Positions 11,694-31,716 of a DNA stretch of 32,908 nt are shown in pieces. Each line of letters opens with the position of its first letter. Within the stretch, counting starts at the first letter, position 1. Both the position numbers and the translations under genes were made by a program. Location: the NCBI GenBank assembly GCA_012735315.1, contig JAAYHS010000140.1, positions 1 to 32,908 on the forward strand, given 5' to 3'. The notes beneath the pieces were generated by a model that made no database searches, was not told the DNA's origin, and saw only the letters and a list, made by a program, of their open reading frames with translations. The DNA is from Bacillota bacterium. Its GTDB lineage: Bacteria; Bacillota; UBA4882; UBA8346.

Positions 11694-13036
11694 TCGTTAA
11701 CACATCCTTTGTTTATGATCCAATTCAACCAAGCCGAGGCTCGCGTGGGAACAACCGCCACCTTTTTAGGTCGACAAGCCTCGCGCAACTTGTCCATGGT
11801 TATTCCGTCCAAGAACAAGGATTCTCCTTGTTTCAAAGTTATCTCGGGAATTAAATAGAGGACTTCCCCCGCTTGCCGATGGTTTTGAATCGCCGCAATC
11901 AGATCTCGGCCGCTTAATAACCCGGTAACCGTGACCGATGGGCCAAAAAAGCGATTCGGCGCCGTGAGAATCTCTAATCCAAGTTTGGGGAAGCGCTCTC
12001 TAAAAACCCGTTTCACTTCCTCCCAAAGCCTGGCTGTGGCTTTTCCGGTAACGATCACCAGTTGTTGATCGATATTTTGTAATAATGAAGATACCCGCGG
12101 CAGCGATTCGTACAAATCCTCCAAAAACCAACGGATTAAACCGACTCCGTTATCAAGCTGCGGATATCCTTCATACTCGGCTGCGGATGGAAAGGTTGCT
12201 TCCGCTATAATATACCATTCATCGGCGGCAAATACAAACCTGGATTTATATTTTTTGAAAAAAATTTGTTGATAACGATGTATCGTTTCGATAACCTCTC
12301 GGGCTTCTCTTTTGTTAAAGGGCCGTAATTGATAAAGCCTTTGCCGGTGGCCGGTCAACCCCACCGGCACGATCGCCAAAGAGAGCACTTGAGGCCGGAG
12401 CGCCGCCAAATCCTGAATGGTTTTTTCCAAAATTGGGCCGTCGTTAATTCCCGGACAAATAACCGCCTGGGTATGGAGAGTGATTCCGGCCGCGGCCAAC
12501 CGCTTTAATTGGTCGATTATCGGAACGCTTGCTTTGGAGCCTAACAATTTTTGACGCGTCGGCGGATCAGTGGCATGAACCGAAATATACAACGGACTTA
12601 AATGTAACTCTTCGATTCGCTCCCAATCCGCCGCGGTCAAGTTGGTCAAAGTAATATAACTGCCTTGCAAAAACGAAAGCCGGTAGTCATCGTCTTTCAC
12701 ATAAAGGGTGGGGCGTTGACCGGGCGGAAGCTGGTTTACGAAACAAAAAATACAATGATTGTTGCAAGTTCGAATGCCGTCGAAGACAACCGAGTCAAAT
12801 CCCAAACCCAGATGATCCTCCGGTTCTTTTTCGATCTCGAACTCCATAAGATCTCCGGACTGCTTCCGGATTTTCAAATTGACAAGCGTTTCAGCGGTTA
12901 ATCTTAAATAATCGATATAGTCAACCGGTTTAACTCCGTTAATTTCCAGTAAGCGATCTCCCGGTTTCAACTGAAGTTCGGCGCCGATACCTTCGGGGTC
13001 AACTTGAACGATTAAAACTCCTTCGGTCGTTGTCAT
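11678..13036 (-). CDS. PDZ and radical SAM DUF512 protein
   Basis: This 452-aa protein has an N-terminal PDZ-like domain (about 1-70, with LQLKPGDRLLEING), a radical SAM iron-sulfur site and a C-terminal DUF512 domain. The cluster motif is CNNHCIFC with Cys91, Cys95 and Cys98, a CX3CX2C spacing that fits a 4Fe-4S radical SAM site. The family is conserved beside der and spoIVA genes in many Clostridia, but its substrate is not known to me. The start ATG has GGGGAGG 7 nt upstream. It overlaps der by 16 bp and follows the 150-aa gene by 42 bp. A link to ribosome or membrane-lipid biology can only be guessed from neighbours. Confidence 0.9.
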   Translation of the reverse strand: MTTTEGVLIVQVDPEGIGAELQLKPGDRLLEINGVKPVDYIDYLRLTAETLVNLKIRKQSGDLMEFEIEKEPEDHLGLGFDSVVFDGIRTCNNHCIFCFVNQLPPGQRPTLYVKDDDYRLSFLQGSYITLTNLTAADWERIEELHLSPLYISVHATDPPTRQKLLGSKASVPIIDQLKRLAAAGITLHTQAVICPGINDGPILEKTIQDLAALRPQVLSLAIVPVGLTGHRQRLYQLRPFNKREAREVIETIHRYQQIFFKKYKSRFVFAADEWYIIAEATFPSAAEYEGYPQLDNGVGLIRWFLEDLYESLPRVSSLLQNIDQQLVIVTGKATARLWEEVKRVFRERFPKLGLEILTAPNRFFGPSVTVTGLLSGRDLIAAIQNHRQAGEVLYLIPEITLKQGESLFLDGITMDKLREACRPKKVAVVPTRASAWLNWIINKGCVNDWRGR

Positions 13037-31295: not shown

Positions 31296-31613
31296 TTAAT
31301 GAATCCAATTTTCCAAACGGCTGATAATAGCCGGTTTCGGCAATGCGCCGACAAATTGATCCACCGGTTTCCCCTGCTTAAAAATGATCATTGTCGGAAT
31401 CGACATCACATTGTATTCCGCGGCCAAATTGGGATTCTCGTCGACATTTACTTTAACGATCTTCACTACCCCATCATATTGGACGCTCAACTCTTCCAAT
31501 ACCGGCGCCACCATCCGGCAAGGGCCGCACCAGGGAGCCCAAAAATCAACCAAAACAACGCCTTCGGAATCCAATACTTCTTTTTTAAAATCGGTTTCCG
31601 ATAAATTCACCAT
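31296..31613 (-). CDS. trxA: Thioredoxin
   Basis: This is a 105-aa thioredoxin, a cytoplasmic disulfide reductase. The active site WCGPC has Cys29 and Cys32, the cis-proline is Pro74 in SIPTMIIF, and Asp23 of the buried pair is present in VDFWAPW. Length and fold are canonical. The ATG has GAGGTGA 7 nt upstream. It has its own consensus promoter with a palindrome over the likely transcription start. The MITE-like element lies just downstream, and I see no clear terminator. Confidence 0.98.
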   Translation of the reverse strand: MVNLSETDFKKEVLDSEGVVLVDFWAPWCGPCRMVAPVLEELSVQYDGVVKIVKVNVDENPNLAAEYNVMSIPTMIIFKQGKPVDQFVGALPKPAIISRLENWIH

Positions 31614-31670
31614 TTAGAATCACCTCTCAAATACTTTTCCTTAATTAGTTTAACCGGAATTAAGAATCTA

Positions 31671-31687
31671 ATTACCCTACTGGGTAT
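31671..31687 (-). promoter_or_regulatory. Operator-like palindrome at the trx transcription start
   Basis: A perfect 5-bp inverted repeat with a 4-nt core, TACCC-TACT-GGGTA on the plus strand, sits immediately downstream of the trx -10 and would cover the start of transcription. Its G/C tract flanked by TA resembles sites of CsoR/CstR-type repressors. No such regulator is encoded in the window, so the match is only by pattern. Confidence 0.45.
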
Positions 31688-31716
31688 AGTATATCAGTTC
31701 CGAGAAACTTCGTCAA
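31688..31716 (-). promoter_or_regulatory. Consensus sigma-A promoter of trx
   Basis: On the minus strand TTGACG (31711-31716) and TATACT (31688-31693) are exactly 17 bp apart, with TG-A before the -10. It starts 10 nt after the stop codon of the glycosyltransferase gene. This is the best-formed promoter I found. Confidence 0.8.

Follow-up and report, generated by a model that had tools for sequence, protein, structure and literature searches.

A palindrome at the thioredoxin promoter of a Bacillota-like lineage is probably the operator of a CstR-like repressor

In the stretch of DNA analysed here (the window, 32,908 nucleotides, contig C73 of a 2.95 Mb genome in 216 contigs, hereafter G000), the promoter of the thioredoxin gene trxA carries the palindrome TACCC-TACT-GGGTA, which is very probably recognised and bound by a repressor akin to the sulfur-sensing CstR. 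We assign it with high confidence to the one CsoR-family protein that was found in this genome, as its operator, and consider it quite likely that this operator belongs to a trxA regulon from which a CstR-like repressor is released by sulfane sulfur or another thiol oxidant, a combined reading that stands this high because it allows an oxidant other than persulfide. If true, thioredoxin, a general disulfide reductase, would be tied directly to a sulfur-sensing repressor via a site that can be recognised in sequence. The features on which the argument turns are the following.

31673..31686, no strand assigned: proposed operator of a CstR-like repressor, TACCC-TACT-GGGTA (exact in the sequence, conserved in relatives)
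31711..31716, minus strand: predicted -35 element TTGACG of the trxA promoter (consensus scan)
31688..31693, minus strand: predicted -10 element TATACT with TG extension (consensus scan)
31620..31626, minus strand: ribosome-binding site GAGGTGA of trxA (sequence reading)
31296..31613 including the stop codon (31613-31299 without it), minus strand: trxA, thioredoxin of 105 aa with WCGPC active site (PF00085, TIGR01068)

A sequence-only reading of this region had described the trxA promoter as near consensus and the palindrome as lying over the expected start of transcription, and both descriptions hold. The promoter agrees with 10 of 12 consensus positions and has TG before the -10, with 17 bases between the -35 element (31716-31711) and the -10 element (31693-31688); promoter-like sites of this quality number 4 in the window against 3.6 expected in the scan. 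The palindrome, TACCCTACTGGGTA at 31673-31686, combines perfect 5-base arms with a 4-base spacer (N4 below), begins one base past the -10 element and covers the expected trxA transcription start. The gene product belongs to the thioredoxin family by its active site and by profile (TIGR01068, 130.6 bits, above the cut-off of 96.8; PF00085, E 8.4e-34), and trxA is flanked downstream by the genes for ribosomal protein S2 and EF-Ts and upstream by a family 2 glycosyltransferase gene. A structured RNA was also considered for the window and set aside, with no Rfam match at gathering scores. The trxA promoters of relatives keep the site: it reads ATACCCTGTGGGGTAT in G001, of the same genus, and ATACCTAGTAGGGTAT in G002 and ATACCTATAGGGGTAT in G007, both of the same family, each time directly after a TATACT or TATTCT -10 element, the succession of TATACT or TATTCT and then ATACC recurring in all three. 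The palindrome thus occupies the same position in four species of three genera; the second close trxA of G007 (L064) is without it.

The same reading had staked itself on the presence of a CsoR-family gene, and one was found in G000, at G000:C44:7462-7701 (PF02583, E 2.3e-21), whose protein matches PF02583 with E 7.1e-22 and 78 bits (cut-off 22.8). It has the cysteine pair of a CstR: Cys42 and Cys71 stand at a distance of 29, and all 14 aligned homologues keep both. Four residues before Cys71 it has Gln, where the solved copper CsoR 4m1p has His. In copper CsoR that His is a copper ligand. Among solved chains the position is His in 4m1p, 5fmn and 4adz, Asn in 7mq1 and Ala in 7mq3; 7mq1, the second-best solved chain, shares the two cysteines, and we take it to be a CstR despite its PDB name of copper-sensing csoR. 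The G000 protein accordingly reads C/Gln/C rather than the Cys-His-Cys of copper CsoR, and we call such proteins, with no His at that position, CstR-type. None of the curated NCBIfam subfamilies reaches its cut-off for this protein, the nearest being the copper regulator RicR at 56.3 bits (cut-off 175). The csoR gene does not adjoin trxA and is preceded by a presumably glutamate-synthase-like gene. All five CstR-type rows of the family have a further Cys close to the N-terminus (Cys9 in G000, whose own csoR lies in locus L079, 7453-7743), which is absent from the alignment's 9 other rows.

Linkage between csoR and trxA was followed in the window's family (G000-G009, including G000), at class level (G010-G028) and at phylum level (G029-G060). 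Of the 19 class-level genomes 15 have a csoR gene immediately ahead of trxA, as against 0 of 10 within the family, and in 13 of these 15 the palindrome (≤1 mismatch) lies just before csoR; of the other two, G013 has a version with 2 mismatches and G027 an assembly gap there. In the CsoR tree, which is built on a short alignment with about half of its forks unresolved, the G000 protein sits in a 5-row family clade (SH-aLRT 96) nested in a 22-row group with the class csoR-trxA proteins (support 83). The simplest reading of these sequences is that csoR-trxA was once an autoregulated operon and that in the window's family the repressor gene would have moved away while the operator was kept at trxA. 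A copy of the palindrome at csoR's own promoter, which the sequence-only reading had recommended looking for, did not materialise within the family: five genomes were searched, with an uncertain csoR start codon in G007, and none has a site with ≤1 mismatch, so csoR autoregulation there was set aside. The sequence ATACGGGGTAA near the csoR ribosome-binding site is common to G000 and G001.

Presence of the site follows presence of the regulator. In a hand count over the 29 family and class genomes, taking the best trxA match in each, a site with ≤1 mismatch at trxA or csoR-trxA was found in 17 of the 18 readable genomes that have a CstR-type gene and in 0 of the 7 that have trxA and in which no such gene was found (Fisher p 1.7e-5, relatedness ignored). 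Four genomes were left out: G003, whose promoter is cut by a contig end, G027, with its assembly gap, and G009 and G012, in which even the best trxA match is not close (E 2.1e-7 and 1.6e-9). Farther out, at least 9 of the 32 phylum-level genomes have a thioredoxin gene with a CsoR-family gene no more than about 325 bases upstream of it (G029, G030, G031, G032, G034, G039, G040, G041 and G043; example loci L030, L040, L043, L045, L047, L051 and L082). Some csoR-trx pairs outside the class (L040, L045, L047, L051) have a C/His/C regulator and sites with spacers of 5 or 6 bases (N5, N6), and linkage to trx alone does not therefore mean persulfide; the csoR-trx link seems to be old and to extend beyond the CstR type. 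G033 has two CsoR-family proteins, each of them C/His/C, and its trx promoter (L026, G033:C4) carries at 1891-1905 the N5 palindrome TACCC-TTGCG-GGGTA, read on the + strand of that locus; the thioredoxin gene may have a copper-type site here. None of the titles and abstract openings listed in searches of open-licence papers names a trxA-csoR operon, and we make no claim to be the first to report the link.

The operator is not confined to trxA. G000 has 7 sites that fit the extended pattern ATACCCN4GGGTAT (≤1 mismatch), a reversed control 2, and three of the seven sites are both promoter-like and conserved between genera: the one at trxA, one on C183 before a ResA-like redoxin gene followed by a DsbD_TM (CcdA-like) gene, and one on C100 before a gene for a Fer4_5 NapH-like Fe-S protein. 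We say "like" because the best NCBIfam models for ResA and NapH stay below cut-off (125.4 of 170 and 45.8 of 213.05 bits). Elsewhere in the genome, C98:656 and C204:59937 lie inside open reading frames and C175:2322 is intergenic. Within the window itself a near-match, ATAACCGCCTGGGTAT, stands at C73:12459 (window 12459-12474) inside a 452-aa open reading frame and is probably due to chance.

Both additional targets were followed across relatives. With the best homologue per genome and the pattern ATACC-n6-GGTAT (≤1 mismatch), the ResA-like site is present in 14 of 18 readable genomes that have a CstR-type gene and in 0 of 5 that do not (p 0.004), leaving out G003 (gap) and G002, G012, G014, G015 and G019 (no match at threshold); its second arm reads CCGTAT in many class genomes and is thus only partly kept. 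At the NapH-like gene the site is found in 5 of 5 genomes with a homologue of at least 48% identity (G000, the query itself, G003, G007, G008 and G013), in 0 of 2 at 31-34% identity (G004, G009) and in 0 of 9 with weaker matches, G001 and G002 having no match to the gene. G008 has the site, yet no csoR was found in its assembly, which is 72% complete. Paralogues in G000, a second ResA-like gene (L281) and a second NapH-like gene (L254), are without the site. In two genera it heads a pair of short Sulf_transp genes (L142, G022:C10, from 3290 onward; L298, G020:C149, 2006), followed in G022 by a rhodanese gene; across 29 Sulf_transp and TusA loci the site occurs at 4 only, all belonging to these places in G020 and G022. 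The sequence-only reading had made its case depend on further copies near sulfur or copper genes, and the ResA-like/CcdA-like and NapH-like genes of G000 and the Sulf_transp genes of G020 and G022 supply such copies near sulfur or redox genes. Genome-wide motif counts were tried as evidence and dropped: over six family genomes N4 sites number 65 against 36 in the reversed control and N5 sites 34 against 41, G000 having 6 N5 sites, with N4 counts of 8 against 12 for the control in G001 and of 15 in G006, in which no CstR-type gene was found.

In light of these observations we propose the following mechanism. With its thiols reduced, the CstR-like dithiol repressor encoded on C44 would occupy the palindrome, its operator, and there cover the -10 element and transcription start of trxA, which would stop RNA polymerase. 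Sulfane sulfur (as persulfide or polysulfide), and perhaps some other oxidant of thiols, would link or modify Cys42 and Cys71, whereupon the repressor would let go of the operator and trxA expression would follow. This repressor would also control the ResA-like/CcdA-like operon and the NapH-like Fe-S membrane protein. In cytochrome c maturation of Bacillus, TrxA feeds CcdA and CcdA feeds ResA; by analogy with that relay, cytoplasmic thioredoxin, membrane relay and outer thiol reductase would rise together, and a single sensor of sulfur or thiols may govern the entire reducing chain.

As to what releases the repressor, our moderately favoured candidate for the main signal is persulfide or sulfane sulfur. 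That thioredoxin would be a sensible target of such control, as the sequence-only reading had argued, fits the finding that TrxA and TrxP of Staphylococcus reduce protein persulfides (PMC6196236; this and the papers below are cited from excerpts). The most serious alternative retains the same CstR-like repressor and operator and takes general thiol or disulfide stress for the signal, with oxygen, reactive nitrogen or electrophiles acting on the repressor and the regulon restoring thiol balance. It is prompted by a search that found no rhodanese, TusA or Sulf_transp gene in G000 (for rhodanese, 0 matches there and control matches in 13 of 14 named genomes), because of which the usual CstR targets are missing and the signal could be general thiol oxidation; control of sulfurtransferase or sulfide-oxidation genes, usual for a CstR though perhaps not defining, is to that extent lacking in G000, where the conserved promoter sites head thiol or electron-transfer genes only. 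Furthermore, the Thermus regulator TTHA1953 binds DNA more weakly once Cu(II) or H2O2 has induced its disulfide link, and it gave no response to NaHS in the test reported in the excerpted text (PMC10318464). Against this stand the Sulf_transp genes headed by the site in G020 and G022, with the rhodanese gene of the latter, and the company that N4 sites keep elsewhere with cst-like genes, as at a Planococcus locus with DsrE, rhodanese, TusA-rhodanese and MBL-rhodanese genes; N4 sites also lie by MBL-rhodanese genes at two actinobacterial loci. We therefore regard thiol stress in place of persulfide as unlikely, while granting it an appreciable share of the probability.

The persulfide reading has also to be weighed against control of trxA by copper or another metal via a metal-sensing CsoR, which would belong to the same protein family, is encountered beside trx in the phylum-level C/His/C loci with N5 or N6 sites named above, and has in RicR the nearest, if far too weakly matching, NCBIfam model. 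Spacer length bears on this choice. Copper CsoR of Streptomyces has an N5 spacer (PMC3902906), and the ScCsoR of Streptomyces coelicolor that polysulfide releases binds ATACC-n6-GGTAT, the same register as the window's site, a point weakened by the two copper-type sites that were included in its motif search input (PMC7533328). We compared the best upstream site of 128 distinct CsoR-family proteins identified by profile, a sample drawn from the loci analysed here and from the best 80 matches of a named-genome scan, with one C/His/His protein (L205, N5) left out of the count. Of the 54 C/His/C regulators with an upstream site 50 have N5, two N6, one N4 and one N2, whereas N4 accounts for 20 of the 21 sites of C/non-His/C regulators and N5 for the remaining one; a site is absent upstream of 35 of 89 and 17 of 38 regulators, respectively. 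Spacer and His were associated with Fisher p 5e-15 in a first, narrower set. A phylogenetically independent test was given up with too few pairs available (1 on starred branches, 2 on all branches), and the proposed N4/N5 rule thus has large counts behind it but few independent origins. One C/His/C regulator, in L203 on a Gemmatimonadetes MAG contig, has an N4 site, TTATACCCCCAGGGGTATAA, and is an exception to the rule.

By this yardstick the window's site has the spacing TACCC-N4-GGGTA of a predicted CstR operator and not the N5 of copper CsoR, and since the sole CsoR-family protein found in G000 also has Gln in place of His, copper control is unlikely and was set aside with only a very slim probability. 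The two types coexist in G007, where an N5 site precedes a C/His/C csoR and N4 sites are found at trxA and at the ResA-like and NapH-like genes. Of the persulfide or metal control offered by the sequence-only reading, the CstR-type half is thus favoured by the absent His and the N4 spacer and the copper half falls away, with persulfide as the signal we infer.

The weakest alternative, that the inverted repeat arose by chance and no regulator binds it, draws on the fact that 5-base inverted repeats of any sequence are unremarkable in the trxA promoter (2 seen, 1.2 expected); we give it next to no probability. First-order Markov resampling of the 113-bp promoter yields the specific motif with a probability of 0.00015 when exact and 0.0046 with ≤1 mismatch, and the exact motif occurs at 2 places in the whole G000 genome, the other within an open reading frame on C18. 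It is nevertheless the same promoter position kept in G001, G002 and G007, and not the motif count, that argues against chance, and together with the copies before csoR-trxA in 13 class genomes and at the ResA-like and NapH-like genes this conservation makes a chance origin very unlikely on sequence grounds.

There is a broader scenario to which we would give an even chance: in this Bacillota-like lineage a CstR-like repressor would have been rewired to switch a transmembrane thiol-reducing chain of TrxA and the CcdA-like, ResA-like and NapH-like proteins, with thioredoxin rather than sulfurtransferases answering sulfane sulfur and the repressor, having left the csoR-trxA operon, acting in trans. 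If this is true, reactive sulfur would be answered by thioredoxin and membrane relay reduction and not by sulfur transfer or oxidation. Likewise, should the correspondence of N4 with CstR-type and N5 with copper-type regulators be upheld in more independent lineages, spacer length would offer a simple means of telling persulfide from copper control in genomes not yet studied.

Several characterised systems resemble the one proposed here in part. CstR of Staphylococcus aureus and Enterococcus faecalis is likewise a CsoR-family protein with a cysteine pair, and in those species a persulfide-sensing repressor; the likeness in operator comes from the N4 TACCC/GGGTA sites of the Planococcus cst-like locus and not from the S. 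aureus or E. faecalis operators. Copper CsoR, as in Streptomyces lividans and chain 4m1p, shares family and half-sites with our case and differs in the His at the ligand position and the N5 spacer (PMC3902906). ScCsoR (SCO0620) of S. coelicolor has the same ATACC-n6-GGTAT register and needs both cysteines for polysulfide sensing, whereas its targets are a persulfide dioxygenase, a rhodanese, a sulfite transporter and itself, with no thioredoxin among those given in the excerpted text (PMC7533328). In the YrkD cluster of Bacillus licheniformis a CstR-like repressor is again found with a thioredoxin, the hypothetical YdfQ, although as part of an 11-gene sulfide-oxidation cluster and not of an unlinked thioredoxin regulon (PMC9918477). 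TTHA1953 of Thermus thermophilus is also CstR-like, represses the thioredoxin SoxW and has targets far from its own gene, but it uses a different operator, TACNNTACNNNNGTANNGTA, and controls the Sox pathway, and the CcdA gene that ends a TTHA1953-controlled cluster showed no response (1.15-fold) in the excerpted results (PMC10318464). Where the CstR regulators described so far in these excerpts control sulfurtransferases, CoA-persulfide reductase, sulfite exporters or sulfide:quinone oxidoreductase (PMC9405070, PMC5480029, PMC10318464), the repressor of G000, a genome in which neither rhodanese nor TusA was found, would instead control trxA, the ResA-like/CcdA-like pair and the NapH-like gene.
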